Source: an uncultured Colwellia sp. (GTDB taxonomy: Bacteria; Pseudomonadota; Gammaproteobacteria; Enterobacterales; Alteromonadaceae). Taken from it: a stretch of DNA of 64,000 nt. Location: contig CAJXQI010000005.1 in NCBI GenBank assembly GCA_913058395.1, forward strand, positions 62,001 to 126,000, read 5' to 3'. The position numbers and the translations under genes are program-made. Below are positions 29,736 through 46,346 of this stretch, in pieces. Each line of letters opens with the position of its first letter. Positions within the stretch are counted from its first letter, which is position 1. The notes below the pieces were generated by a model that was not told the DNA's origin, searched no databases, and saw only the letters and a program-made list of their open reading frames with translations.

Positions 29736-32015
29736 TTAAAAGAAGTTAGCTTTAAACTCTACACCCCAAAAGCGAGGTTCATTAACATAACCTGTTAGGT
29801 TGTTAAAATCGATTGCACCTGTAAGTTGTTCTTCATCGGTAATGTTACGACCAAATAAAGCTACTTCATATTCAGCGTCATCACCGAACCATTCATAACC
29901 GACACGTACACCACCTTCCAATAATGCATCACCTTTAAATTCGGTAGATTCATACAAGAAGAAGTTAACTTCACTGCGGTAAGACCAATCTGTATAGAAA
30001 TATAGTTCACCGTCGGCAATTTCTTTAGTCCAACGCGCACTAATATTACTGATCCACTCAGGAGATTGTGGTAATGAATTACCATCAATAATCGCTAAGC
30101 CATCTGCATTTAACGGATCAGTTACAGTACAACCGCCGCCACAACCAGGTACAGCAACTGTGCTATCTTTTAATTCAGTGTGGTTATAACTAACACTACC
30201 AGCAATAACTAAATCAGGCGTTACAAAATACTCTGAATCTAATTCAAAACCATAACCTACCGATTTGTCGGCATTTAATAAGCTAGCAACGTTTCCGGTA
30301 CCACCAACAGCAGTTAACTGCTGATCTTTAACAACATAGTAGTACACTGAACCATCTACACGCGCTGTATTTTCTAAGAAAACTGATTTGAAACCAGTTT
30401 CAATTGAATCTACAGTTTCTGAATCAGCTGTTGTTGAGTTTGCTGAAAATAGTAAGCTACGACCTTGAATACTTGGTGCACGGTAACCACGAGCAATACG
30501 AGCATAGATGTTAGTTTCATCGTTAAGTACGTATGACGCACTAAAATCACCACTCACTTGTGAATCTTCAACATCATTACTTTCAGTAAAACCTGGTGCG
30601 CCAAATGGTGATTGAACTAATTCACCGTCCCATTTACGTTCGTCATCTGAGTAACGTAAACCACCGTTGATGCTTAATTTATCTGATATTTGGTAGTCAA
30701 GTGAAGCAAATACTGCCCAAGCAGTTGTCTCCATATTTTGAATAGCTAGACCATTTGGTGCGCCATTAGCCAAAGTATCAAAGCTCAGGTTGTTTATGGT
30801 TAGGTCTTCATCGAATAAAAAGAAACCAAATTGGTAATCAAAATCACCTAGGTCATTACTAGCAATGCGTATTTCTTGAGTTGATTGCTTGTGATCTGGC
30901 ATTTTTGCGCCAGTCTCTGAAGTAAATGGAATAAAATCAGGCCCCATATTTGCAGGATCACAACCAGGAATAGCCGTAATACCACAACCATAACCACCAT
31001 CGATATCACCTACTGAAAACATTTCAGCAGATTCATGACCAGTGATTGACGTTAATGTATGGCTACCAAAATCATATTCGATTTTTAAGCTTGCGCCTTT
31101 CATATCAACCGTTTGATTGTTACGAACAGCAGCATCATGAAAAACGGTTTCACGATCAAAGTCATCAACTAAATCATTAGTACCTGGCTTGATAATGTTT
31201 GCTCTAAAAATACGAGCGTCAGCTTCTGCGTCTCTGAAGTGATAGTTAAATAACGCTGAAAAATCGTCATTTGGTTCCCACAATAATTGTACGCGACCTG
31301 CTAATTCGCCATAGCCACCTAATTGATCTTTTTGTTCAAAGCCCGGGGCTTTGTTATCAATCCAGTCATCACGGTGTTGTTTCAATAATGAAAAACGACC
31401 AGATAAGGTATCAGTTAAACCTCCACCAACCGCTAAACGAAAATCTGTTGAGCCAAAGCTGCCGTATGAGCCAGAAACTGTTGCATCAAAATCTTGTGTT
31501 GGCTTTTTAGATTGAACTTTAACAATACCTGCCGGTGTATTACGACCAAACAAAGTACCCTGTGGACCACGTAAAACTTCTACGCGTTCAATATCAAACA
31601 TTGGCATACCTTTAGTTAAGGCATTTTCCAATACAACATCATCATAGATAAGAGAAACAGGCTGTGATGCTAACAAATCGAAATCAGTGTTACCTAAACC
31701 ACGAATATAAAAACGCGGGAATGTACGACCGAAAGAAGATTCAATTAGTAAGCTTGGTACTTTAGCAGACAAAGATCTTACATCCATGCCTGAAGAACCT
31801 AGTACTTCTAATTTTTTAGGGGTTAGTGCTGAAACTGAAATAGGTACATCTTTTACGTTTTCTGTACGTTTACGTGCAGTAACTTCGATAACCTCAATGC
31901 CAACAACTTCATCAGCATTCTCTTGCGCAATTGCCGAGCCAGAAACGCTAGCAACAGACGCAAAAATAGCCGCGTTTACACAAAGTGCAAGCGACGTTTT
32001 TTTAAAAACATTCAT
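29736..32015 (-). CDS. TonB-dependent receptor (beside nucleoside genes)
   Basis: Outer-membrane 22-strand barrel with plug, powered by TonB. The ATG at 32015 is chosen because GGGAGAG lies 6 nt upstream, giving 759 aa with a signal peptide (residues 1-31, ending near SAIAQ). The plug has EVIEVTARKRTENVKDVPISVSAL and VLRGPQGTLFGRNTPAG. The barrel ends in an aromatic residue (KANFF). deoB lies 99 nt upstream on the same strand with no obvious terminator, so the receptor may be read through from the deoB promoter. A nucleoside or nucleotide substrate is inferred only from context. Confidence 0.88.
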   Translation of the reverse strand: MNVFKKTSLALCVNAAIFASVASVSGSAIAQENADEVVGIEVIEVTARKRTENVKDVPISVSALTPKKLEVLGSSGMDVRSLSAKVPSLLIESSFGRTFPRFYIRGLGNTDFDLLASQPVSLIYDDVVLENALTKGMPMFDIERVEVLRGPQGTLFGRNTPAGIVKVQSKKPTQDFDATVSGSYGSFGSTDFRLAVGGGLTDTLSGRFSLLKQHRDDWIDNKAPGFEQKDQLGGYGELAGRVQLLWEPNDDFSALFNYHFRDAEADARIFRANIIKPGTNDLVDDFDRETVFHDAAVRNNQTVDMKGASLKIEYDFGSHTLTSITGHESAEMFSVGDIDGGYGCGITAIPGCDPANMGPDFIPFTSETGAKMPDHKQSTQEIRIASNDLGDFDYQFGFFLFDEDLTINNLSFDTLANGAPNGLAIQNMETTAWAVFASLDYQISDKLSINGGLRYSDDERKWDGELVQSPFGAPGFTESNDVEDSQVSGDFSASYVLNDETNIYARIARGYRAPSIQGRSLLFSANSTTADSETVDSIETGFKSVFLENTARVDGSVYYYVVKDQQLTAVGGTGNVASLLNADKSVGYGFELDSEYFVTPDLVIAGSVSYNHTELKDSTVAVPGCGGGCTVTDPLNADGLAIIDGNSLPQSPEWISNISARWTKEIADGELYFYTDWSYRSEVNFFLYESTEFKGDALLEGGVRVGYEWFGDDAEYEVALFGRNITDEEQLTGAIDFNNLTGYVNEPRFWGVEFKANFF

Positions 32016-32114
32016 TAAGTACTCTCCCAAGAACTGTTTATGTTTTGTTGAATTGTTTTATATTTAAGTTTCGCACTATGCTGTGCATAAAACTTTGTTA
32101 AATATGTTTAACTT

Positions 32115-33326
32115 TTATAGGTCAAGATCCTTTAAAAAACTTGTACCGTAAGGCATTTCTTCCAATTTAAATAAATCGGCTATTGTCTGACCTATATCTG
32201 CAAAAGTATTTCTTTCGCCAATATTAACAGATCGTACCTGTTTATGAAATGCCACAACAGGCACATATTCACGCGTATGATCATTTCCGTGCCAAGTTGG
32301 GTCACAACCATGATCAGCAGTCAAAAACAATACATCGTCATCATTCATCGCAGCGGTAACTTCAATCAAACGTTTATCAAAGTTCTCTAGTGCTAAAGCA
32401 AAACCAACAGGGTCACGACGATGGCCAAAGTCTTGATCAAAATTTACTAAGTTGGTAAATATCAAGCTATTATCTTGTGCAGTTTTTATATGTGAAATCG
32501 TAGCATCTAATAAAGCATCAATGCCGGTCGCTTTTGTTTTTACGCTAATTCCTTGATGAGCATATATATCGGCTATTTTACCAATACTAATTACATGTCC
32601 ACCAGCTTGGGTTAATACATCTAATACCGTCGGCGCTGGAGGTAAAATAGAGTAGTCACGACGATTTCCCGTACGCTCAAAGTCTTCAGGGCTTTCACCG
32701 ACAAAAGGCCTAGCAATAACACGGCCTATATTCATATCACTAAGTAATTCACGTACGGTTTCACAATACTTATACAGGTTATCTAAACCAAAATGTTCTT
32801 CATGTGCTGCTATTTGAAATACGCTATCCGCAGAAGTGTAACAAATAGGTAAGCCGGTTTTAATGTGCTCTTGGCCTAAACTATTGATAATGTCAGTGCC
32901 CGATGCATGACAATCACCCAAAATCCCGTCAAAACCTGTTTTTTGATTAATTTTTTCGATCAGCTCAACTGGAAATGCCTTCCCACCTTTAGGAAAATAG
33001 CCCCAATCGAATAATACTGGCACACCCATCATTTCCCAATGACCGCTTGGAGTATCTTTACCAGTGCTAATTTCAGCAGCATAACCATAAGCACCTTGTT
33101 CTGGATTTTGGTCTACAACAGGGAAATTACCTTTGCCTGCCTCGAAAGCCGCTTGAACCAAACCCATTTTTGCAAGGTTAGGCAAGTTAATTGCGCGTTT
33201 TTCTTGCTGGTAGAATGCTTTAGACAAGTTGGCAAAAGTATTGGCTGTAACATCACCAAAATCTGCAGCATCAGGCGCATGCCCAATACCAAAACCGTCG
33301 ATTACTAAAACTATTGCTCTTGCCAT
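32115..33326 (-). CDS. deoB: Phosphopentomutase
   Basis: Interconverts (deoxy)ribose 1-phosphate and 5-phosphate, linking nucleoside phosphorylases to DeoC and the pentose pathway. The 403 residues have the metal-binding alkaline-phosphatase-fold motifs VIDGFGIGHAPDAADFGD, STGKDTPSGHWEMMG, and the late TADHGCDPTWHGNDHTREYVPV. Length is close to E. coli DeoB (407 aa). It is divergent from udk across a 291-nt spacer that holds a RutR-type palindrome 76 nt upstream of the deoB start. Confidence 0.96.
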   Translation of the reverse strand: MARAIVLVIDGFGIGHAPDAADFGDVTANTFANLSKAFYQQEKRAINLPNLAKMGLVQAAFEAGKGNFPVVDQNPEQGAYGYAAEISTGKDTPSGHWEMMGVPVLFDWGYFPKGGKAFPVELIEKINQKTGFDGILGDCHASGTDIINSLGQEHIKTGLPICYTSADSVFQIAAHEEHFGLDNLYKYCETVRELLSDMNIGRVIARPFVGESPEDFERTGNRRDYSILPPAPTVLDVLTQAGGHVISIGKIADIYAHQGISVKTKATGIDALLDATISHIKTAQDNSLIFTNLVNFDQDFGHRRDPVGFALALENFDKRLIEVTAAMNDDDVLFLTADHGCDPTWHGNDHTREYVPVVAFHKQVRSVNIGERNTFADIGQTIADLFKLEEMPYGTSFLKDLDL

Positions 33327-33401: not shown

Positions 33402-33417
33402 ATGACCAATTGGTCAA
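33402..33417. promoter_or_regulatory. RutR-type operator between deoB and udk
   Basis: ATGACCAATTGGTCAA matches the E. coli RutR consensus TTGACCAnnTGGTCAA at 13 of 14 defined positions, and its central 14 bp are a perfect palindrome. It can act on both divergent transcripts. A right half-site (TTGGTCC, 33522-33528) follows a TATAAT box at 33517 nearer to udk. Confidence 0.72.
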
Positions 33418-33617
33418 CATGTGATACTTTACCAAGCAATAAATTATAGACAACTGATATTTTGTAAATATTTAACATTTCCCTAAAGTGGTTAAGGTGA
33501 AAGTTATTAAATTCAGTATAATTGGTCCATAATATGAACGCGATAATTTACCGAACAAATATATCGTGTTGAATAATTTTAACCCTATTGTTAACCACAC
33601 ATTTAAGGCTCTTTGTT

Positions 33618-34256
33618 TTGCAAACCAATAAACCGACAATTATTGCGGTAACTGGTGCGTCAGCATCAGGTAAATCCCTTTTTGCGCAAACTATTTACGA
33701 TGAACTTCTTCCCGAACTTGGGCCAAGCGGCATCTCTATCATTAAAGAAGATTCGTATTATAAAAGCCAATCTCACCTTTCAATGGAAGAGCGTGTTAAA
33801 ACTAATTACGATCACCCTAGTGCATTTGAACATAGTTTATTAAGCGAACACTTAACGGCGCTAAGTAATGGCGATAGTGCTGACATTCCGACTTATTGTT
33901 ATAAAACACATACACGATTAGAAGAAACATTACATTTGTCATCAACATCAATAATTTTAGTTGAAGGCATTTTACTTTTTTCTAATGAAGAATTACGCAA
34001 TAAATTCGATATTAAAATTTACATCGATACACCATTAGATATTTGTTTAGTTCGCCGTATAAGTCGAGATACCATCGAACGTTCACGTAGTATTGAATCA
34101 ATTACGCAGCAATATTTAACCACCGTTCGCCCTATGTATCATCAATACATTGAACCGAATAAGCCATTTGCTGACGTTGTAGTAACACGTGGTGGTAAAA
34201 ATAGAATGGCAATTGAAATGTTAAAAGCAAAAATTCGTCAAATAATGCAAAAATAA
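33618..34256 (+). CDS. udk: Uridine/cytidine kinase
   Basis: Phosphorylates uridine and cytidine to UMP and CMP with GTP or ATP. The P-loop GASASGKS is near the start, followed by EDSYYKSQSHLSMEERVKTNYDHPSA, LVEGILLF and PLDICLVRRISRDTIERSRS. The TTG at 33618 is preferred: AAGG lies 9 nt upstream and the protein then matches E. coli Udk from its N-terminus (212 aa). A TTG at 33588 would add 10 poorly conserved residues. nupC follows after 69 nt on the same strand. Confidence 0.94.
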   Translation: MQTNKPTIIAVTGASASGKSLFAQTIYDELLPELGPSGISIIKEDSYYKSQSHLSMEERVKTNYDHPSAFEHSLLSEHLTALSNGDSADIPTYCYKTHTRLEETLHLSSTSIILVEGILLFSNEELRNKFDIKIYIDTPLDICLVRRISRDTIERSRSIESITQQYLTTVRPMYHQYIEPNKPFADVVVTRGGKNRMAIEMLKAKIRQIMQK

Positions 34257-34325: not shown

Positions 34326-35570
34326 ATGGATTTAAGTGCACTTAGAGGCGTAATGGGCATCATTGCTCTATTAGTTATTGCCTTCTTATTGTCAAAAGAT
34401 CGTAAAGCAATTAATTGGCGTACCGTCGGATTTGCATTCTCTTTGCAAATTTTGCTTGGAGCCTTTGTACTCTACGTACCATTTGGTAAAGATGTTTTAG
34501 GCTCAATAACTAACGGCGTACAGCAAGTAATCGACAGCGCCAAAGCAGGCATAAACTTTTTGTTTGGTGGCTTAGGAACTGACGCCATGTTTGGCAACGG
34601 AGTTGGTTTTGTTTTCGCTGTTCGCGTACTACCTGTAATTATCTTCTTTTCTTCACTTATTGCCGTACTTTACTACTTAGGCGTTATGCAATGGGTAGTT
34701 AAAATTATTGGTGGCGGTTTACAAAAGCTATTAAAAACGTCAAAACCAGAGTCTTTATCAGCAACCGCCAATATTTTTGTTGGGCAGACAGAAGCACCAC
34801 TCGTCATTCGTCCTTATATCGCTAAGATGAGCCAGTCTGAATTGTTTGCCATTATGGTCGGCGGGTTAGCTTCTGTTGCAGGTTCAATTCTTGCCGGTTA
34901 CGCAGGTTTAGGTGTAAAACTAGAATACCTAATCGCTGCTTCATTTATGGCTGCACCTGGTGGCTTATTAATGGCCAAGTTATTAATGCCAGAAACTGAA
35001 GAAATTAATAATGATTACAGTGACGTAGAAGTTGACAAAGAAGGCGAAAAGCCAGCAAATGTTATAGATGCTGCAGCTTCTGGTGCTGCTTCTGGACTGA
35101 AGCTAGCGGTTAATGTTGGCGCAATGCTATTGGCCTTTATTGCAATTATTGCCCTACTAAACTCTATGGTATCTGGTTTTGGGAATTTATTAGGCTTTGA
35201 AGGCATTACTATTGAATGGATGCTTGGCTATATTTTCGCACCATTTGCTTTTCTTATCGGCGTTCCTTTTGAGGAAATGCTACAAGCGGGCAGCTTTATT
35301 GGTCAAAAAGTTGTGGTAAATGAGTTTTTTGCTTACGTAAACTTTGTTGAAATTAAAGATACTTTATCACCTGTAACACAGGCGATTATCACGTTCGCAT
35401 TATGTGGTTTTGCTAACTTATCTTCTATTGCCATTTTATTAGGCGGAATCGGTTCTATGGCACCAAATCGTCGTCCCGACATTGCTCGCTTAGGCATGAA
35501 AGCTATGTTAGCAGCAACAATGGCAAACTTAATGAGTGCCGCGATTGCCGGTGTATTTGTTAGCTTGTAA
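34326..35570 (+). CDS. nupC: Concentrative nucleoside transporter (NupC/CNT family)
   Basis: Inner-membrane cation-coupled nucleoside importer. The 414 residues are mostly hydrophobic helices. They contain CNT signatures: [20 protein letters not shown], the substrate-site loop [47 protein letters not shown], and the second repeat ending [21 protein letters not shown]. The gene follows udk and precedes deoC, with a terminator hairpin behind it. With the flanking TonB receptors it gives a full two-membrane import route. Confidence 0.94.
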
Positions 35571-35659: not shown

Positions 35660-36433
35660 ATGAGTACAATCGAAACCTATGCGCAACGCGCGCTTGAAAT
35701 GATGGACTTAACCAGTTTAACCGATAGTGAAAGTGCAGCAGATATTATTGCGCTTTGCCAAAATGCAAAGTCACCTAAAGGTAACACCGCTGCTATTTGT
35801 ATCTTCCCTCGTTTTATTCCTTTAGCCAAAAAAACATTAGCTGGCCAAGGTACACCTGAAGTAAAAATTGCCACGGTAACAAACTTCCCTCACGGTAACG
35901 ATGATATAGAAATTGCGGTAGCAGAAACAAAGGCCGCCGTTGCTTACGGCGCTGATGAAGTTGACGTAGTATTTCCATATCAAGCATTAATCAATGGTAA
36001 TGAGAGTATCGGTTTTGAATTGGTTAAAGCGTGTAAACTTGCCTGCCCAAAGCACGTACAACTGAAAGTTATTATTGAAAGTGGTGAATTAAAAACTGAT
36101 GCATTAATTATACAAGCCAGCGAAATTTCAATTGCTGCTGGTGCAGATTTCATTAAAACGTCAACGGGTAAAGTCCCTGTGAATGCGACACCAGACACAG
36201 CTAAGTTAATGTTAACTGTTATCAAAAACAATAATACTAATGTTGGTTTTAAACCAGCAGGTGGCGTTAAAAATGCTGAAGATGCTGCAGTATATTTAGA
36301 CCTGGCAAGTGACATTTTAGGTGCTGATTGGGCAAATAAAAATAACTTTAGATTTGGCGCAAGTAGCTTGTTAACTAATTTGCTTAACACCTTAGGTGCT
36401 AGCAATAAAACAGCAGATCCAGCAAGTTACTAA
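35660..36433 (+). CDS. deoC: Deoxyribose-phosphate aldolase
   Basis: Cleaves deoxyribose 5-phosphate to acetaldehyde and glyceraldehyde 3-phosphate, the last step of deoxynucleoside catabolism. The 257 residues show the class I aldolase barrel with [39 protein letters not shown] and the Schiff-base lysine in [15 protein letters not shown], then [15 protein letters not shown]. Length matches E. coli DeoC. It lies after the nupC terminator, so it probably has its own promoter. tdk follows after 53 nt. Confidence 0.96.
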
Positions 36434-36486: not shown

Positions 36487-37062
36487 ATGGCACAGTTATA
36501 CTTTTACTATTCAACAATGAATGCAGGTAAATCTACCCATTTATTACAGTCTTCTTATAACTATCGTGAACGAGACTTAAACACCTTATTATTTACCGCA
36601 CAAATCGATGACAGGTTTGCTAAAGGCAAAGTATCTTCAAGATTGGGCATTCATGCCGATGCACAATTGTTTAATGAAACTACTAATGTCTTTAGCCAAG
36701 TTAAAACATTCATTGAGACCAATAAGCTAGCTTGTGTATTAATTGATGAAGCACAGTTTTTAACTAAACAGCAGGTCAAAGAACTTACAGATATTGTTGA
36801 TGAACTCAATATTCCCGTTTTAGCATACGGCATACGTACTGACTTCCTAGGTGAAACATTTGGTGGCAGCGCTGCCCTGCTTGCTTGGGCTGATAAATTA
36901 GTTGAATTAAAAACTATTTGTCACTGTGGTAAAAAAGCCAATTTTGTCATTCGTTGTGATGAGCATGGCAATGCAGTCAAAGGCGGGGAACAAATTGAAG
37001 TCGGTGGTAACGAACGCTATGAGTCGCTATGCAGAAGGCATTTTAAAGCACTCGTTTGGTAA
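36487..37062 (+). CDS. tdk: Thymidine kinase (type II)
   Basis: Phosphorylates thymidine and deoxyuridine for salvage. The 191 residues have the P-loop [15 protein letters not shown], the DEAQFL Walker B motif, the lasso-domain [15 protein letters not shown] and zinc cysteines ([10 protein letters not shown] and the distal C of SLCRRHF). It is interesting that the salvage kinase tdk sits next to deoA, which degrades the same substrate. It follows deoC in the same direction. Confidence 0.96.
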
Positions 37063-37235: not shown

Positions 37236-38552
37236 TTAGGCTGTTATCGTTTGATAGATAACAGGTTGTTCATCTACTGCTTGGCTATTAATAGTTAAAG
37301 CAGCAAGATATTGCTCACTCGCTAATTTTGCTGAATCGTCATCTCTAGCATGTAATCTTGCAACTACATCACCACGATTCACTAATGTACCAATTGGCAA
37401 AATTCTGTCAAAACCAACACTGTGATCAATTTGCTGACCGTTAGCGGTACGACCTCCTTTCAGTCCGACTACCGACATACCAATATCGCGAGTTTGCATG
37501 CCAACAATATAGCCATGATCTGGTGCAATTACGTCAACAATTACGTTAGCTCGTTGCATAGATGCCCAAGGATCTTCCATAAAGTTACTTGGTCCGCCCA
37601 ACGCATGTATCATCTTACCAAAAATTTCTGCTGCTTCACCTGAAGCTAATACCGCATCAATTTTTTTCAACGCTACATCTTCATTTTCTGCAACCTTAGC
37701 ACTTACCAACATCGCCTTTGCAAGTGAAACAACAACAGCATGTAAACGCGGTTCACGTAATGTACCATTTAAATATTTTACGGTTTCAGCCATCTCTAAG
37801 GCATTACCCGCAGTCGCCCCTAACACTTGGTTCATGTCAGTGATAATAGCTTGTGTCGGAACACCAGAGCCATTGGCAACATTAACAATACTTTGAGCCA
37901 ATGCCCTTGCATCATCAATGTTTGACATCATAGCGCCATTACCAACTTTTACGTCCATAACCAGCGAATCTAGCCCTGCTGCCAACTTTTTCGACAAAAT
38001 TGACGCTGTGATCAAAGGGATAGACTCAACCGTTGCCGTAATGTCACGTATACCATATAAGCGTTTATCTGCTGGAGCTAAATTATCCGTTTGTGAAATA
38101 ATCGCAACACCAAGATCTTTAACAATACGCTTAAAATCGCCAATACTTGGTTGAACATTAAAACCAGCAATACTTTCTAATTTATCAGACGTACCACCAG
38201 TATGACCTAATCCACGACCTGAAATCATCGGCACATACGCGCCACAGGCAGCAACAATAGCAGCAAGCATAAAACTTACCTTATCGCCGACACCGCCTGT
38301 TGAATGTTTATCTACAATTGGACCATCTAATTCAGGCCAACTTAATACATCGCCAGAATTTTTCATTGCTGAAGTGAAATCAATTATTTCAGAAGTTTGC
38401 ATACCCTTTTGAAATATCGCCATCGCCATTGAACCAACTTGAGCGTCATTAAAATTCTTTGTTACTAAACCATCGACAAAATATTGTATTTGTTCTTGGG
38501 AGAGTGAACCACCGTTACGTTTGGTGCGAATAATTTCTTGTGGTAGTAACAT
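37236..38552 (-). CDS. deoA: Thymidine phosphorylase
   Basis: Splits thymidine or deoxyuridine with phosphate into the base and deoxyribose 1-phosphate. The 438 residues begin LPQEIIRTKRNGGSLSQEQI and include DKHSTGGVGDKVSFMLAAIVAACGAYVPMISGRGLGHTGGT-type phosphate-site segments, LAPADKRLYGIRDITATVES and SILSKKLAAGLDSLVMDVKVGNGAMM. Length is that of E. coli DeoA (440 aa). It is the second gene of a cdd-deoA operon (12-nt gap). Confidence 0.96.
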   Translation of the reverse strand: MLLPQEIIRTKRNGGSLSQEQIQYFVDGLVTKNFNDAQVGSMAMAIFQKGMQTSEIIDFTSAMKNSGDVLSWPELDGPIVDKHSTGGVGDKVSFMLAAIVAACGAYVPMISGRGLGHTGGTSDKLESIAGFNVQPSIGDFKRIVKDLGVAIISQTDNLAPADKRLYGIRDITATVESIPLITASILSKKLAAGLDSLVMDVKVGNGAMMSNIDDARALAQSIVNVANGSGVPTQAIITDMNQVLGATAGNALEMAETVKYLNGTLREPRLHAVVVSLAKAMLVSAKVAENEDVALKKIDAVLASGEAAEIFGKMIHALGGPSNFMEDPWASMQRANVIVDVIAPDHGYIVGMQTRDIGMSVVGLKGGRTANGQQIDHSVGFDRILPIGTLVNRGDVVARLHARDDDSAKLASEQYLAALTINSQAVDEQPVIYQTITA

Positions 38553-38564
38553 TAATTTTAATCC

Positions 38565-38984
38565 TTATCGTTCAAGTAAGTCTTTTGGCGTAAAGGCGTC
38601 AGGCAATAATTCGCTAACAGTCCATTCCTTTGTATCGTTGATATGATTAACAGCTTTAACCAGCGCGTTTGGCGCTAAAAATTCTGCAATCACTTGTCGA
38701 CATGCGCCACACGGCGGGGTTAACTTTTCTTGATTGGTATAAATAACAATTGCAGAAAATTCTTGCTCACCAGCAATAACACCTTGCGCTAAACAATTAC
38801 GCTCTGCACAAACGGTTAAACCATAAGAAGCGTTTTCAACGTTACAGCCTTTTACGACGTTACCGTCAGCTGTTAACGCAGCAGCGCCCACGTGAAAATT
38901 GCTGTAAGGTGCGTAAGCTTTTGCAAAGCCATCTTTCGCGGCTTCAACAAGTTCTGCTATTTTATTATCTTCAATCTTTGACAT
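38565..38984 (-). CDS. cdd: Cytidine deaminase
   Basis: Deaminates cytidine and deoxycytidine to uridine and deoxyuridine. The 139-residue form is the short zinc-dependent tetrameric type: AYAPYSNFHVGAAAL, the catalytic NASYGLTVCAERNCL (Cys ligand and Glu) and PPCGACRQVIAEF. ATG at 38984 is chosen, with AAAGGG 7 nt before it; a TTG two codons upstream lacks correct spacing. First gene of cdd-deoA, with a promoter and operator just upstream. Confidence 0.95.
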   Translation of the reverse strand: MSKIEDNKIAELVEAAKDGFAKAYAPYSNFHVGAAALTADGNVVKGCNVENASYGLTVCAERNCLAQGVIAGEQEFSAIVIYTNQEKLTPPCGACRQVIAEFLAPNALVKAVNHINDTKEWTVSELLPDAFTPKDLLER

Positions 38985-38999
38985 TATCAAACCCTTTAA

Positions 39000-39015
39000 C
39001 TGACCAAATGGTCAA
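39000..39015 (-). promoter_or_regulatory. RutR-type operator of cdd-deoA
   Basis: Read on the minus strand TTGACCATTTGGTCAG matches the RutR consensus at 13 of 14 defined positions. It lies 16 nt before the cdd start and right after the predicted -10 box, where a bound repressor would block initiation. Confidence 0.72.
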
Positions 39016-39187: not shown

Positions 39188-42100
39188 TTAGAAACGGTAT
39201 CTTACACCCATTTTAACACTCCATGCTGACTTTTCAGCGTCGAACGTATCCCAGTTATTACCATCAAATCCACCGTATGGTCTAGAATATACATAGCGAC
39301 CGGCATCGTCGATATCGTAATCAACTAAAGCGGTAGTACTGTATTGGCTTCTTAACGCCTGACCTTTAGAGCTATCAATAAGGTTTAATAAGTTACGAAT
39401 ATTAAAGAACAACTCTCCCTTATGACCTTCCATAAAGCCAGGTAATTCTTGTGTAATTGTTAAGTCTAAACGTGTCACCCACGGGGCACGATCAGCACCT
39501 TTAGGAGCATTACCACCAGCGTATTTTGATAAGCCTGTCGCATCTAAATATCCAGAAAACTCTGCATAATTAAAGCTACCGTTATATACAACATTTGGAT
39601 CGTCTGCTCCAGTAGGAATATATGGTAAATAAGCTTCTGAATCATCAAATGAACCCTGGTCACCAAAATCACTATCGCGGAATGCACCTAGCACCCAGCT
39701 AATTGGTCGACCTGAATGACGCTCAAAGAACAAGTGGAAAGATGTTGCATAGTTTTCAACAAACTCAGTACGGTAGTTCATACTTAACTTAAAGCTATGT
39801 TCAATTTCATATGCACCTGTACCAACATTCACACTACCGCGATCAGTTGTAACTGGGTATTGAAAGTTTGAAGTTGCTGTAGAGCTTGTACCCGGTGTAC
39901 CTTCAGTAATATCTTGGTTTGTATATGAAGCATTAAAACCAAATCCATTATCAAATTGCTTAGATAAGCTTGTAGTAAATATTTTACTACGGCCATCATC
40001 ATCAGCATTTGTTAACATTAAGTCATAACGTTGAGTTTTCTCACCTGTTAACTTATCTATTGCTTCATAAATTGGCACACCAGTTGTTGTTTCACCAACT
40101 TGCTGTCTTGTTAAGTCAGTCCAAAAAACACTATCTTTTTTCTTCGTGTAGATATATTCCGATGACCATAACCAATCTTCACCAAAACTTGGTACTGCAA
40201 AAGTATAATCAAAACCAATACTTGAACGCCAATCAGAAGGAAGTTTAAAGTTTGGATCTGTAACGTTTACGTTACCATCGCCAGGAGCCATACTATCTAA
40301 AACAGACTGCGGTATTTTAGTAATATCAGCATTGATTAAATCATCATCATTTACTGAACCAGTAACATACGTTACACCATCGTTACTATATGAGTTTGAT
40401 AACCAAACATTTGGGCTACCACCACTAAAGCGACCAACACCACCACGTACAACTAAATTATCTGTAGCTTCCCACTCAAATGCAATTCTTGGTAAGAAAA
40501 TGCTTTCGCCATCTAAATTAGTTGAATTTGAAAAAGCATATCTGTCAAAAAAGTTAGCATTAAAGCTCGGTTGATCATCACTACTAATTTGTTCATATCT
40601 CAAACCAGCAGTTAATATGAACGTATCAGTTAGCTGAATGCTATCTTCAACAAAAAGCGTTGTGTTTTCGAATGTGAATTCTGCGGCAACATCATCAGAA
40701 TTGTTAGTATATGCATTAGCATAATCTAAACCTGATGCTGTTTGATTAGCAAAATCAGCAATGCTATCAAATTCCCAAGTTCCTAAAGAGTCTTGTGCAA
40801 AAAGGTTTCTAACGTCAATTGATTCGTATTCTAAACCGAATGCGATTTCATGATCTTCATACAAGTACTCACCTAAGAAACGGAATGACAATGTTTGATT
40901 ATCAAGCTCGTTACCATGACGATATTTATCAGCACCAAAAGCGATGTCACCACTTGCAGTAGCAACAGTTACATCACCAAATGCTTTTGTTGATGGTGCT
41001 TGAGCCGTATCAACCTCTTTATAAGCTAGTTTAATTTCTGTAGAAAAATCGTCTGACCAGTATGAGTATAAGTGTGCCGCAAGTGATTCTAAATTCTCAT
41101 TTTTATCATACCAGTGAGTCGATAGTTTCAATTCATAATCTGAGCTTGTTGTGTTGCGAGTTACATTACCTTCAGTTTTTTGATAAGTAAGTGAAGCACG
41201 ATGATCATCGTTAATATTCCAATCAAGCTTAACTAAAACTTTTTCATCTTTTTCTTCAGGTTGTTTATCCCAGGTCCCAATATCTACGCCGTAAACTGAC
41301 TGTGCAACGCTTCTCAACTCTTCGTAATCTGCAAGGCTTGCATCCGTTGCATTTGGAGCAGATGTTCCATCCGGTCCGAATTCAATTTGCGCTGGTGCAT
41401 CAAACTTTTCATATGAAGCGAAGAAAAATAATTTATCTTCAATAATTGGACCACCTAGTGTAGCGGCATAAGTAGTTGATTCAAAATCCAAATCAATGTC
41501 TGGTGAATCATTTGGATCATTTAAATCGTCTTCCCATGCTGGATCTTTAGGTGTTCCAGCCCAGCTATCTGAGTCTTTTTCCCAAGACAATGAACCGTGA
41601 AATTCATTAGTACCTGATTTTGTTACTGCGTTAATTTGTCCACCAGAAAAACCACCATTTCTCGCTGAGAACGGCGTTGTTTCTACACTAACTTGTTCAA
41701 TTGCATCAATCGAAATCGGTGAACGTTGTGTTGGGTAACCATTGCCGTTTAAACCAAAATCATCATTTTGACGAACCCCATCAACAGTAAAGCTATTAAA
41801 ACGAGGGTTTGAACCCGCAATAGACATTGTTCCATCGTCATCTGTTGATAAGTTAACAAGTGGGTTAGTTCTTAAAACATCTTTTAAATCACGGTTGCCG
41901 CCAGCAGCATTCATGATATCGTCTGATCCCCAAGAGCCTGCAGAGCCTTTGTTAGTAAATCCAACTACACGACTACCTGTAACAGCAATTCTCTCTACAT
42001 CGTCAACATCTAGATCAGTTGAAATACGTAATGGTTTACCTACTTCTAAATAAACATTGTTTTGCTGTTGATCTTTGAATTCATCAGAATCAATAACAAT

Positions 42101-42349
42101 AGTATATGGACCACCGACACGTAATCCTCTTGCACTATAGCTACCAGATTCATTAGTTTCTACAACTTTAACTGTACCTGAAGGTATGTGAGTTATCGTT
42201 ACCTTAGTATTAGCTGCTGGTTGCCCTGCTGGCGTGTTAACCTTGCCCAAAATACTAGACGATGTTTCATTTGCCATAACAGAAGTTGAAAGCCCTAAAG
42301 CAATAACAACCGCGCCGGCGATATTAGAGAGACGATGATTTTTCATCAT
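39188..42349 (-). CDS. Oar-like TonB-dependent receptor with N-terminal carboxypeptidase-regulatory domain
   Basis: Large outer-membrane receptor of 1053 aa. A signal peptide (about 1-27, ending SVMA) is followed by a carboxypeptidase-regulatory-like beta domain (residues 32-110, ILGKVNTPAGQPAANTKVTI), a plug with VERIAVTGSRV and SGGQINAVTKSGTNEFHGSLSW, and a long barrel ending GVRYRF. This architecture is that of Oar/TonB receptors that take up large or complex substrates. It stands between cdd-deoA and the RutR-like regulator. A RutR-type site is 320 nt upstream, so a nucleoside or nucleic-acid-derived substrate is plausible but inferred. Confidence 0.88.
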   Translation of the reverse strand: MMKNHRLSNIAGAVVIALGLSTSVMANETSSSILGKVNTPAGQPAANTKVTITHIPSGTVKVVETNESGSYSARGLRVGGPYTIVIDSDEFKDQQQNNVYLEVGKPLRISTDLDVDDVERIAVTGSRVVGFTNKGSAGSWGSDDIMNAAGGNRDLKDVLRTNPLVNLSTDDDGTMSIAGSNPRFNSFTVDGVRQNDDFGLNGNGYPTQRSPISIDAIEQVSVETTPFSARNGGFSGGQINAVTKSGTNEFHGSLSWEKDSDSWAGTPKDPAWEDDLNDPNDSPDIDLDFESTTYAATLGGPIIEDKLFFFASYEKFDAPAQIEFGPDGTSAPNATDASLADYEELRSVAQSVYGVDIGTWDKQPEEKDEKVLVKLDWNINDDHRASLTYQKTEGNVTRNTTSSDYELKLSTHWYDKNENLESLAAHLYSYWSDDFSTEIKLAYKEVDTAQAPSTKAFGDVTVATASGDIAFGADKYRHGNELDNQTLSFRFLGEYLYEDHEIAFGLEYESIDVRNLFAQDSLGTWEFDSIADFANQTASGLDYANAYTNNSDDVAAEFTFENTTLFVEDSIQLTDTFILTAGLRYEQISSDDQPSFNANFFDRYAFSNSTNLDGESIFLPRIAFEWEATDNLVVRGGVGRFSGGSPNVWLSNSYSNDGVTYVTGSVNDDDLINADITKIPQSVLDSMAPGDGNVNVTDPNFKLPSDWRSSIGFDYTFAVPSFGEDWLWSSEYIYTKKKDSVFWTDLTRQQVGETTTGVPIYEAIDKLTGEKTQRYDLMLTNADDDGRSKIFTTSLSKQFDNGFGFNASYTNQDITEGTPGTSSTATSNFQYPVTTDRGSVNVGTGAYEIEHSFKLSMNYRTEFVENYATSFHLFFERHSGRPISWVLGAFRDSDFGDQGSFDDSEAYLPYIPTGADDPNVVYNGSFNYAEFSGYLDATGLSKYAGGNAPKGADRAPWVTRLDLTITQELPGFMEGHKGELFFNIRNLLNLIDSSKGQALRSQYSTTALVDYDIDDAGRYVYSRPYGGFDGNNWDTFDAEKSAWSVKMGVRYRF

Positions 42350-43035
42350 TTTATTCCTTGGTAGAAGTTTATTATGTTTTATAAATTGTTTAATTTTAGC
42401 TTCACTTAGTTTAATTTTTAATCTAATTATTATTTTTTAAGTGTATTTCAGCAGAAATTAGACCAGAGTTTCGTTACATTTTCATTACAAACTTTTACAA
42501 CCTTTATTTTGCTAAGTTAGATTATTTTTCAAAATAAAATAATAAAACAAACACAACAACAACAAACCCATAAAATACAATGGAATAAGCAACTATTTAA
42601 AACAAAGGCAAAAAAACCTTATAACAATAACTGTATTAAAATTAATTTTTCATAACAAAAAATCATTAAAACACACCATATGGTCAGGATAAAAACATCT
42701 ATGCTTCAATTGGCTTTTCTAAAGGTCTATAGTAAATTGAATTTATTAACCATCCGAACACATACGACAGAAAAACTGTATATTGAGATATAACAGTATA
42801 CAAAATGTATTAAAACAGTGTCTTAAGCAGATAATTCACTTAAACTATTCGCTTTACTAAGAACAAGAAATGATTTTTTGATTAAAAATAGTATTTTATT
42901 CGAAAAATTGAGTGAAATTTGAACTTAAAATGTTATGACTAATTTAAAGCATAGAACAAGATCAATAAAATGTAACATTGGCGTAATAATATAAGACTAA
43001 CTAAATATAAAAATAAAAATTGAAAGGTTATTAGT
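42350..43035. other. long AT-rich regulatory spacer between the Oar-like receptor and rutR-like genes
   Basis: No ORF of credible quality. It holds the RutR-type site at 42672, and three TTACA(A) repeats at 42474, 42485 and 42495 spaced 10-11 bp (TTGTAA on the receptor's strand). The two genes are divergent. The spacer is far longer than usual for this window. Confidence 0.6.
42672..42687. promoter_or_regulatory. RutR-type operator between the Oar-like receptor and the regulator
   Basis: CACACCATATGGTCAG matches the RutR consensus in the core ACCA and TGGTCA; ACCATATGGT is a perfect 10-bp palindrome. The left outer arm is degenerate, so it would be a weaker site. It could serve the receptor gene, autoregulation of the regulator, or both. 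Confidence 0.55.
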
Positions 43036-43668
43036 GTGAGTAATAATACAACAAATGATAAGCAAGGAAGCATCAGGTCGCGCAGTGAAGCCGTCATTTT
43101 ATCTGCCGCGCAAAAAGAGTTTATTCTGCAAGGTTATAAAGGTGCTACTGTGCAATCCATTGCAGATTCAGCAGGTTTGCCAAAAGCAAACGTGCTGTAT
43201 TATTTTAAAAACAAAGAAAATATCTATCATGCTGTACTGCAATTAACCTTAGATACATGGGATCAAGGCATTGGAGATATTGATAGTAGTGACGGACCAG
43301 TTGTTGCCATTGAAAAATTTATTGCTGCTAAAGTAAAAATGTCTTTTGAACACCCACAAGCTTCAAAAATTTACGCGTTGGAAATAATTCAAGGGGCACT
43401 GCACTTAAAAGAATTTGCTCGTACTTATTTACGACAATGGGTTCGAGAAAAAGCAAAGTTATTTCAAGTGTGGATTGATAACGGTGAAATGGTTAATGTC
43501 GACCCCGTTAAACTCATATTTCTTATTTGGTCTTCCACGCAGCACTATGCTGATTTTGAACAACAAATATTAACCATAATGAACCGTGCCGATTATGAAG
43601 AAGACGATGTTACGCAAGTAACCGAGTTCTTAACTGATTTCATTTTACGTGGCTGCGGCTTAAAATAA
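43036..43668 (+). CDS. rutR: TetR-family regulator, RutR homologue
   Basis: Transcription regulator similar to E. coli RutR, which binds uracil or thymine and releases its DNA. The 210 residues match RutR in length. The N-terminal helix-turn-helix is AAQKEFILQGYKGATVQSIA followed by KANVLYYFKNKENIY. The C-terminal ligand domain shares long stretches with RutR: HPQASKIYALEIIQGA and KLIFLIWSSTQHYADF. The start is GTG with GAAAGG 8 nt upstream. It is followed 9 nt later by the phosphatase-fold lipoprotein gene. The typical rut pyrimidine-degradation operon is not in the window. Confidence 0.87.
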   Translation: MSNNTTNDKQGSIRSRSEAVILSAAQKEFILQGYKGATVQSIADSAGLPKANVLYYFKNKENIYHAVLQLTLDTWDQGIGDIDSSDGPVVAIEKFIAAKVKMSFEHPQASKIYALEIIQGALHLKEFARTYLRQWVREKAKLFQVWIDNGEMVNVDPVKLIFLIWSSTQHYADFEQQILTIMNRADYEEDDVTQVTEFLTDFILRGCGLK

Positions 43669-43677
43669 GGAAAGCAT

Positions 43678-44880
43678 GTGCGATTGTTAACCACCATTTT
43701 AGCAACAACTTTATTGCTAACATCTGGATGTAATATGGCTAGTTCAAAAATTACAGCACCTTCTAAACTCCGTATTGCTACATTTAATGTCAGTATGGAA
43801 GCACTTAACTATCTACCTACTGATCAAAGCCAGAATGCAAAGGTTTCTGGTAATGAATTAACGCTAGCATTAAAAAATAATCGTCAACAAATCAAGAATA
43901 TTGCCGAAATTATTCAACGAGTAAATCCTGATATAATCTTGCTAAATGAATTTGACCGCTTCGATGACTCACATCAATCATTAAAGCACTTTATTGAGAA
44001 TTACCTCAATAAATCTCAAAATGGTAATAAAGCCATTGACTATCCTTACTTTTATCAAGGCCCGGTAAATACGGGTGTTCCAACAAAGTATGACTTAAAC
44101 AACGATGAGAAAGCCGGTACTTTACCGAGTGATGCTTACGGCTTTGGTCATTTTCCTGGTCACTTTGCCATGGCATTGTTATCTAAGTACCCAATCGATG
44201 AAGATAAGATCAGAACCTTCCAATTGTTTAAATGGCAAGACATGCCAAATGCTTTAGTGCCTGTTGATCCTAAAACTGGCAAGCCTTGGTATAGTGACCA
44301 AGCGTGGAGTAATTTCCGCTTATCTTCTAAATCACATTGGGACATACCTGTTAACATTAACGGCAACAAACTACATGTTTTAGCTAGTCACCCTACACCA
44401 CCAGTGTTTGATGGTCCTGAAGATAGAAATGGTAAACGCAACTTTGACGAACTACGTTTCTGGATAGATTACTTAACGCCAAGTGCTGCTAGTTACATTT
44501 ATGATGATAACAAGCAATATGGTGGTTTAGCACAAGACCAAGCCTTTGTTATTCTTGGAGATTTGAATGCCGATGCCATAGATGGCAATGCAATTAAAGC
44601 AGGTATACACCGCCTAACGAATCACCCACGGGTTATTGACCCGCAGCCAGAAAGTGAAGGTGGAAAATATCATCGAATCGATAATCCCCACGCTAAAAAT
44701 CATACTGCATTCTGGGGCATGCGAGCTGATTATGTTTTACCGGCAAGAGCACAAATGTCTGTTCTTGATTCGGGCATATTTTGGCCTAAAACTGATGAAG
44801 ACGAATTTCGCCTAATCAAAGACCGTGCAGCGTCATCAGATCACCGCCTAGTGTGGGTAGATGTTGAGTTGAAAAATTAA
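43678..44880 (+). CDS. Endonuclease/exonuclease/phosphatase-family lipoprotein
   Basis: Predicted surface or periplasmic phosphodiesterase or phosphatase. The GTG start gives a lipoprotein signal with lipobox LTSGC (Cys18), then the EEP fold: IATFNVSMEA, NPDIILLNEFDRFDD (catalytic Glu), VLASHPTPP, FVILGDLNADAIDG (Asp-Asn), YVLP and the final SDHRLVWVDVEL (catalytic His). Length 400 aa. It is 9 nt after the RutR-like gene and 83 nt before an alkaline phosphatase. The neighbours suggest nucleotides or nucleic acid as substrate, but the sequence alone does not settle this. Confidence 0.85.
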   Translation: MRLLTTILATTLLLTSGCNMASSKITAPSKLRIATFNVSMEALNYLPTDQSQNAKVSGNELTLALKNNRQQIKNIAEIIQRVNPDIILLNEFDRFDDSHQSLKHFIENYLNKSQNGNKAIDYPYFYQGPVNTGVPTKYDLNNDEKAGTLPSDAYGFGHFPGHFAMALLSKYPIDEDKIRTFQLFKWQDMPNALVPVDPKTGKPWYSDQAWSNFRLSSKSHWDIPVNINGNKLHVLASHPTPPVFDGPEDRNGKRNFDELRFWIDYLTPSAASYIYDDNKQYGGLAQDQAFVILGDLNADAIDGNAIKAGIHRLTNHPRVIDPQPESEGGKYHRIDNPHAKNHTAFWGMRADYVLPARAQMSVLDSGIFWPKTDEDEFRLIKDRAASSDHRLVWVDVELKN

Positions 44881-44963: not shown

Positions 44964-46346
44964 ATGAAAAAATTCGTTCCCAGTATATTAGCCAGCATGA
45001 TGGTCATGTCATGTAGTCAACTATCGACTAACGATTCCAATGAATTAATCGTAAAAGATAATGCACCTAAAAACATTATTATGATCGTCGGCGATGGTAT
45101 GGGCCCTGCTTATACGACTGCTTATCGTTATTTTCACGATAACCCAGCAACGGCTCAAATAGAGCAAACCGTTTTTGACCGCCATCTAGTAGGCAGTGCC
45201 AGTACTTACCCAGCGAGAGTTTCCGGTTACGTGACCGACTCAGCAGCAGGTGCAACAGCTCTGGCAACCGCAACGAAATCTTATAATGGCGCTATTGGTG
45301 TTGATGTTGATAAAAAGCCAGTTGAATCCGTACTTGTGTGGGCAAAAAAGCAAGGCAAAAAAACTGGTATGGTTGTGACATCACAAATTAACCATGCAAC
45401 GCCTGCTTCATACTTAGCTCACAATGAAAGCCGTCATAATTACAATGAAATTGCTGACAATTTTTTAGCCGCCCATGACAATATCGATATTATGCTAGGT
45501 GGCGGTTGGCAGTATTTTATTCGCGAAGATAAAAACCTAGTCGAAGAATTTCAAACGAAAGGTTTTAACTATATAAATAACTACAATCAACTTACACAGC
45601 TACCAAGTGATGAGAAGGTATTAGGTTTATTCGCTGATAAAGGCCTTCCATGGGCATTAGACGATAGTAATAAACATCGACTATCCACAATGACTAAAGC
45701 AGCAGTTAATCAGTTAGAGAACAAAAACGGCTTTTTTATGTTGGTTGAAGCGAGCCAAGTCGATTGGGCTGGCCACGGCAATGATATTGCTGCAGCAATG
45801 GCTGAAATGGATGATTTAGCTAAAACTTTAGAATACCTAGAAAACTATGTGAAAGAAAACCCTGATACCTTAGTGGTATTAACGGCTGATCATAGCACTG
45901 GTGGCTTCACGCTTGGCAGAGACGGTGATTATTTATGGCAACCCGACGTGCTTAGAACGATGACAATGTCGCCTTCAGCGATCGCCAAAAACTTAGCTAA
46001 AAATAGTATTACACTTTCCTATGTAAATGAAATGCTTAATTTTAATGTTACTAGTGATGAGATAAAAGAATTACAAGCAACTAAAGCTGAAGCACAACGT
46101 TCACTAGCAGAGTTTAACCAATCTACTAAAATTGCAGGAAAAATGACTCCTTCAATTGAAAAAGCATTGCACAAGAACATCAATCACATCATAGACCAAC
46201 GTACTGTGACCGGTTGGACAACATTTGGTCATACCGCTGTTGACGTACCTGTTTTTGCTATGGGTACTCAGAAAGAACTTTTTGAAGGCTTAAGTGATAA
46301 CACTGAAATTGCTAACAACATATTTTATTTATTAGGCAAAAAATAA
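44964..46346 (+). CDS. Alkaline phosphatase, lipoprotein
   Basis: Metal-dependent phosphomonoesterase on the cell surface or in the periplasm. Signal with lipobox VMSC (Cys17) and then the PhoA-type active site: MIVGDGMGPAYTTA (Asp ligand), GYVTDSAAGATALATA (nucleophile Ser in DSA), HATPASYLAHN, EASQVDWAGHGND, LTADHSTGGFTLGR and the distal FGHTAVDVPVFA (zinc His). 460 aa. It could remove phosphate from nucleotides to give importable nucleosides. No Pho box was recognised upstream. Confidence 0.9.
   Translation: MKKFVPSILASMMVMSCSQLSTNDSNELIVKDNAPKNIIMIVGDGMGPAYTTAYRYFHDNPATAQIEQTVFDRHLVGSASTYPARVSGYVTDSAAGATALATATKSYNGAIGVDVDKKPVESVLVWAKKQGKKTGMVVTSQINHATPASYLAHNESRHNYNEIADNFLAAHDNIDIMLGGGWQYFIREDKNLVEEFQTKGFNYINNYNQLTQLPSDEKVLGLFADKGLPWALDDSNKHRLSTMTKAAVNQLENKNGFFMLVEASQVDWAGHGNDIAAAMAEMDDLAKTLEYLENYVKENPDTLVVLTADHSTGGFTLGRDGDYLWQPDVLRTMTMSPSAIAKNLAKNSITLSYVNEMLNFNVTSDEIKELQATKAEAQRSLAEFNQSTKIAGKMTPSIEKALHKNINHIIDQRTVTGWTTFGHTAVDVPVFAMGTQKELFEGLSDNTEIANNIFYLLGKK

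Follow-up and report, generated by a model that had tools for sequence, protein, structure and literature searches.

In enteric bacteria and Vibrio, deo, cdd, nupC, and udk genes are controlled by CytR and DeoR, regulators of the LacI and DeoR families, respectively. To our knowledge, little is known about how a bacterium decides to use extracellular DNA. Such DNA is a source of carbon, nitrogen, and phosphorus for marine microbes (PMC8289736). RutR of E. coli (b1013) is uracil-responsive and acts on rutA-G and carAB; uracil is held by Trp77, Tyr97 (via water), Trp167, Gln171, and the partner chain's Gln179, and Lys52 has been modelled touching a guanine (PMC10891134, part of the text). Comparative genomics has also been used to reconstruct RutR regulons across 68 genomes of proteobacteria, with ~11 target genes per genome and taxon-specific changes of the motif; the accessible part of that report names pyrimidine catabolism as the role and has Colwellia psychrerythraea among the genomes discussed, for HutC (PMC5343134). 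Here we describe a RutR-like palindrome in the window, i.e., the whole 64,000-nucleotide stretch of DNA analyzed, which is quite probably an operator at which a RutR paralogue represses a DNA- and nucleoside-scavenging regulon until a pyrimidine-like ligand releases it.

Palindromes and genes in the window

A previous, sequence-only reading of this DNA had proposed a perfect RutR-like palindrome at 33402-33417, between deoB and udk. The 16-mer ATGACCAATTGGTCAA does lie there, and its inner 14-mer, TGACCAATTGGTCA (33403-33416), is a perfect palindrome; the outer A/A is unpaired, i.e., perfection extends over 14 bp, not 16. The distances given in that reading were also correct, the palindrome being 76 nt from the deoB start (33326) and either 171 nt (first possible start, TTG 33588) or 201 nt (TTG 33618) from udk. 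For comparison we used the 16-bp RutR consensus. The RutR-like character of the site was borne out, since it is conserved in position, tracks a RutR-family protein, and is of a type (TGACCANNTGGTCA) from which the E. coli carAB site differs by one base. A second perfect site, a weak one, and the gene of the candidate regulator, all of which had been missed, are found in the same window:

29736-32030, minus strand: TonB-dependent receptor behind deoB, presumably co-transcribed with it
32115-33326, minus strand: deoB, phosphopentomutase
33403-33416: putative operator 1, TGACCAATTGGTCA, common to deoB and udk-nupC-deoC-tdk, conserved at deoB
33588-34256, plus strand: udk, uridine kinase (start uncertain)
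34326-35570, plus strand: nupC-type nucleoside transporter
35660-36433, plus strand: deoC, deoxyribose-phosphate aldolase (named by resemblance)
36487-37062, plus strand: tdk, thymidine kinase
37236-38552, minus strand: deoA-type pyrimidine nucleoside phosphorylase
38565-38990, minus strand: cdd, cytidine deaminase
39001-39014: putative operator 2, TGACCAAATGGTCA, perfect copy upstream of cdd-deoA, conserved at cdd
39188-42349, minus strand: large TonB-dependent receptor, divergent from the regulator
42673-42686: putative weak operator, ACACCATATGGTCA, 2 mismatches, in the spacer between receptor and regulator genes
43036-43668, plus strand: RutR-type TetR regulator (TetR_N + TetR_C_3), likely reader of the sites
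43678-44880, plus strand: endonuclease/exonuclease/phosphatase-family protein (EEP) behind the regulator, without an operator of its own
44964-46346, plus strand: alkaline phosphatase-family protein (phoA), without an operator of its own

Palindromes of the TGACCANNTGGTCA type begin, with 0 mismatches, at 33403 and 39001. When up to three mismatches to the exact 14-mer were allowed, the window held 9 matches vs 2.79 expected, a number reached in 0 of 100 shuffles; with up to two mismatches to TGACCANNTGGTCA, it held 6 vs 1.62 expected (1 of 100 shuffles had as many). Across the 4.39-Mb genome, TGACCANNTGGTCA has 3 perfect copies vs 0 for the reversed control; all 3 are intergenic and 2 are inside the window. 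Allowing one mismatch genome-wide gave 14 copies (the 3 perfect ones included) vs 10 for the control; therefore, single-mismatch sites are not significant alone, and weaker sites need conservation as support.

The sequence-only reading had also made a half-site at 33522, beside the TATAAT box of udk, part of the switch. The half-site TTGGTC is present at 33522-33527, but it is kept in 0 of 9 aligned relatives (which have, e.g., TTGTTC, TTAGTC, or TTAGTT), and we rejected it. The palindrome itself is a real observation and better founded than that reading could know. Promoter scans were unconvincing in both spacers, with 1 hit vs 2.3 expected in one and 0 vs 1.6 in the other. On its udk side, operator 1 adjoins a block (33417-33470) that is strongly conserved in most of the 10 aligned genomes and holds a minus-strand TATAAT and, by eye, a TGTGA resembling half a CRP site; the deoB promoter may lie within it. 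The large receptor (39188-42349) is a fast-changing surface protein within a stable cluster: it shares only 46% identity with the equivalent protein of the nearest genome (G091, L112), compared with 89-99% for the neighboring genes, and some genomes have it in duplicate.

The candidate regulator and conservation of the sites

Of the 16 TetR_N proteins encoded in the genome, a single one also carries TetR_C_3, the C-terminal domain of the RutR type. This protein of 210 aa is encoded at 43036-43668, 10 kb from operator 1. It scored 45.9 bits for TetR_N (cut-off 24) and 150.8 bits for TetR_C_3 (cut-off 25), and E. coli RutR, at 35% identity, was its best match among solved structures. Since it reached 163.9 bits for the RutR equivalog TIGR03613, far below the cut-off of 368, it is a RutR homologue and not RutR in the strict sense. 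The genome as searched has no RutA match and no dihydropyrimidinase above cut-off and, therefore, no usual target in degradation of the pyrimidine ring was found in it. Orthologues of the regulator, hereafter clade A, were matched at 61-100% identity in 39 of the 118 family genomes searched (own genome included; list read by hand), and other RutR-type paralogues, at 34-46% identity, are common among these 118. In trees, E. coli RutR sits on a very long branch and support for clade A is moderate (87/77); consequently, the branching order is unsure.

A search for the same site in related genomes, as the sequence-only reading had suggested, covered 80 regions. These were the surroundings of the regulator and of deoB in 38 other clade-A genomes, plus 22 deoB places from genomes in which no clade-A gene was detected. 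Sites were scored within 400 nt upstream of a gene, with at most one mismatch unless stated otherwise. Results showed sites at clade-A loci upstream of deoB in 30 of 37 orthologue-bearing loci, cdd in 25 of 31, the regulator in 14 of 38, and the large receptor in 17 of 45. At loci without clade A (L172-L191), the corresponding counts were 0/20 for deoB, 0/3 for cdd, and 0/6 for the receptor, and one of six deoA upstreams had a site (L182, genome G048). A deoB site occurred in both of two further loci without a detected clade-A gene (L170 of G092 and L171 of G048), each in a genome that is 85% complete. Nine control genes of the clade-A regions together had sites in 2 of 241 upstreams (EEP 0/32, phoA 0/30, TBDR1 0/31, nupC 0/31, tdk 0/32, deoA 0/31, aroG 0/16, deoC 1/32, and metC 1/6), and letter-shuffled deoB upstreams came to at most one mismatch in 0.05% of 1900. 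In a named set of loci that overlaps the first, sites were found at deoB in 13/13, cdd in 42/45, the regulator in 10/62, and the receptor in 10/58 upstreams, and at none of the controls (EEP 0/54, phoA 0/50, nupC 0/31, deoC 0/33, tdk 0/34, deoA 0/49, metC 0/20). With two mismatches allowed, regulator upstreams had a site in 29 of 38 (first set) and 47 of 62 (named set), which fits weak autoregulation.

The seven of 37 orthologue-bearing loci without a site within 400 nt of deoB include two (L150, L163) in which it stands beside udk, behind an inserted receptor gene, and three (L151, L153, L154) in which udk was not found beside deoB. A de novo search of 4096 half-sites with five spacers, in which the known consensus was not used, ranked TGACCA with a 2-nt spacer first at both deoB (29/37) and cdd (25/31). 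For the control gene EEP, the same search showed enrichment of a different palindrome (CAGCAT, 1-nt spacer; 17 of 32 upstreams), which is probably coding sequence of the regulator. Since EEP and phoA lack operators in the clade-A regions, only transcription running on from the regulator gene would make them part of the regulon.

Sites elsewhere in the genome, which the sequence-only reading did not include, involve an extracellular DNase and a sugar-phosphate isomerase. A single-mismatch site, TGACCATAAGGTCA, precedes by 145 nt a gene for a 1354-aa ExeM/NucH-family extracellular DNase (exeM); among the 30 best matches with a locus, such sites (at most one mismatch) preceded exeM in 8 of 10 clade-A vs 1 of 20 other genomes, some starts being extrapolated. 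The third perfect site (C20:26118-26131, L309) lies between a LysR-type gene and a paralogue of pgi (glucose-6-phosphate isomerase, three matches in the genome), 142 nt upstream of the latter. This site is perfect in 4 of 4 sampled genomes of the genus, whereas none of 22 further clade-A genomes and none of 4 genomes without clade A has it even with one mismatch; it therefore appears to be a recent addition. The 11 single-mismatch sites of the genome were not accepted wholesale as further targets: nine are inside reading frames, and of the two intergenic ones that of exeM was followed to conservation. The other, TGACTACATGGTCA (C3:261126-261139, L335), lies upstream of a gene that by eye is pckA-like.

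We also inspected 20 further places with perfect sites in clade-A genomes, chosen among the matches listed. Beside them were 3 pgi genes, 3 ExeM-type DNase genes, 2 adenosine deaminase genes (one below cut-off), 1 deoC, 1 deoA-deoB pair, 1 cdd-deoA pair, and 1 deoD (more than 400 nt away). Three more places had a dihydropyrimidinase gene divergent from one for a dihydropyrimidine-dehydrogenase-like subunit (one pair was scanned, the other two were recognized from their first residues); dihydropyrimidinase-type genes have sites in three relatives. Of the remaining five sites, 4 fall within reading frames and 1 has no identified neighbor. Taken together, these neighbors suggest a program running from a secreted DNase through a receptor to import of nucleosides, their salvage, and use of the pentose.

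Predicted mechanism and alternatives

We propose that a dimer of the regulator would bind TGACCANNTGGTCA in front of deoB and udk-nupC-deoC-tdk and in front of cdd-deoA, weakly in the spacer between its own gene and the receptor gene, and elsewhere before the exeM-type DNase gene and the pgi paralogue. It would thereby hold down genes whose products are predicted to convert extracellular DNA and nucleotides to nucleosides, import these, and channel base and pentose into metabolism. The repressor would be released by a base or nucleoside arising from the use of DNA or nucleosides, and the single site between deoB and udk would then open both directions together. The ligand should be pyrimidine-like; thymine or uracil, set free by the DeoA-type phosphorylase, or a close relative of such a base would be the most likely candidate. 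Lys52, Trp77, Gln171, and Gln179 are kept in 76 of 76 distinct clade-A sequences and Trp167 in 74, while the Tyr97 position holds Phe in 70 and Ile in 6. Four of the five uracil-binding residues (Trp77, Tyr97, Trp167, Gln171, Gln179) are kept in the protein of the window. The regulator should still hold a flat pyrimidine-like ring, with the pocket changed in detail.

The same regulator could act at the same site partly as an activator or anti-repressor rather than as a plain repressor released by ligand. In E. coli, RutR displaces PepA and thereby increases expression of carAB (PMC10891134), and across relatives the distance between the site and the deoB start varies between 28 and 330 nt, which does not fix the position of a repressor. 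At cdd, however, 15 of the 25 loci with an operator have it 8-13 nt ahead of the extrapolated start, which fits blocking and suits repression. We regard such partial activation as unlikely, although it is the alternative that should be taken most seriously.

Could another TetR-type protein read the palindrome? The number of TetR_N proteins encoded in the genome speaks for this; however, the RutR-type C-terminal domain occurs in one of them only, and the sites follow the orthologues of that protein, which makes a different reader improbable. Since such sites also stand next to paralogues from other clades, the motif alone cannot name the reader in genomes carrying both.

Shared descent bears on the repressor reading as well. 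In three genomes without clade A (G003, G052, G087), the deoB/udk-nupC arrangement is unchanged and the site is absent. In G066, G079, and G021, the deoB/udk cluster and the regulator share a contig but are widely separated on it, and single-mismatch sites are present in both places, which points to a diffusible regulator. Genus g36 was not counted as a clean contrast (G108 without orthologue and deoB site, G036 and G077 with both), because the one deoB detected in G108 belongs to the type (59% identity) that G036 and G077 have as a second copy. A formal test yielded no more than 2-3 supported contrasts that are independent by phylogeny, which does not suffice for significance; hence, shared descent explains part of the agreement between site and regulator. 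That a functionless site was kept solely by descent of a slowly changing spacer, as so few contrasts might allow, is nevertheless highly improbable, since variation affects the two central bases but not the halves, and flanks, spacer length, and the distance to deoB all change among relatives. Equally improbable is a role of the palindrome at the RNA level, as a hairpin or terminator of a 5' leader, which we rejected: a terminator scan does flag both perfect sites (1 vs 0.1 expected in each stretch), but the stem has only 5 pairs, single-base departures that would break a pair (e.g., TGACCAAATAGTCA and TGACTAAATGGTCA) are common among relatives, and the identical sequence lies upstream of many unlinked genes.

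An operator of a ligand-released repressor thus remains our preferred reading. Far more tentatively, this RutR-paralogue clade of the Colwelliaceae and Psychrosphaera might be a regulator dedicated to feeding on extracellular DNA, with DNase, outer-membrane receptor, phosphatase, importer, salvage, and pentose use under one operator and with a pocket in which Phe or Ile in place of Tyr97 has moved recognition away from uracil and toward a DNA-specific signal (such as thymine or a deoxynucleoside); we consider this possible, though somewhat less probable than its negation. If the preferred reading is true, one short sequence would mark the DNA-foraging genes of this lineage and could serve as a marker for marine genomes, and a pyrimidine-sensing repressor would have been re-aimed from breakdown of the base to harvest of DNA, its operator being kept.

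Comparison with known systems

Twenty neighborhoods of paralogues (L276-L295) were compared, and the paralogue was called in 19. Clades of 8 and 3 adjoin purine-degradation genes (guanine deaminase, uraD, and in several cases xanthine dehydrogenase), a clade of 6 adjoins allantoate-amidohydrolase-type genes, and 2 loci from G041 stand apart by gene content and tree. The only site of the 8-locus clade belongs to a cdd-deoA pair (L280), and this clade lacks adjoining TGACCA-type sites; among the clades of 3 and 6, seven of nine loci have TGACCANNTGGTCA-like sites. These proteins share the domain family with clade A at the 34-46% identity given above and, unlike it, keep Tyr97 in 19 of 19. Arg replaces Lys at position 52 in 10 of the 19, a number that matches, as a count only, the tree clade of the first 8 plus the G041 pair; a change of operator in the Arg52 paralogues is possible.

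Among the papers listed in a search of titles and abstracts of the open-licence literature, none describes this regulon. The kinds of target genes resemble those of CytR and DeoR, whereas the regulator here is of the TetR family and the operators differ. With the reconstructed RutR regulons (PMC5343134), the locus shares the regulator family, the role named in the accessible part of that report being pyrimidine catabolism. E. coli RutR is alike in several respects: both proteins combine TetR_N with TetR_C_3, Lys52, Trp77, Trp167, Gln171, and Gln179 are nearly always kept in clade A, and the operator type is shared with carAB, although the best match to TGACCANNTGGTCA in the E. coli rutA/rutR spacer has 3 mismatches, which counts against the proposed operator reading. 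Unlike E. coli RutR, the regulator falls below the equivalog cut-off, has Tyr97 replaced, and occurs in a genome in which RutA was searched for without a match; its candidate targets are nucleoside, DNase, and pgi genes. Therefore, the type of switch is one known from E. coli and the targets here are different, the set of them appearing unusual as far as searched and the ligand pocket apparently changed.
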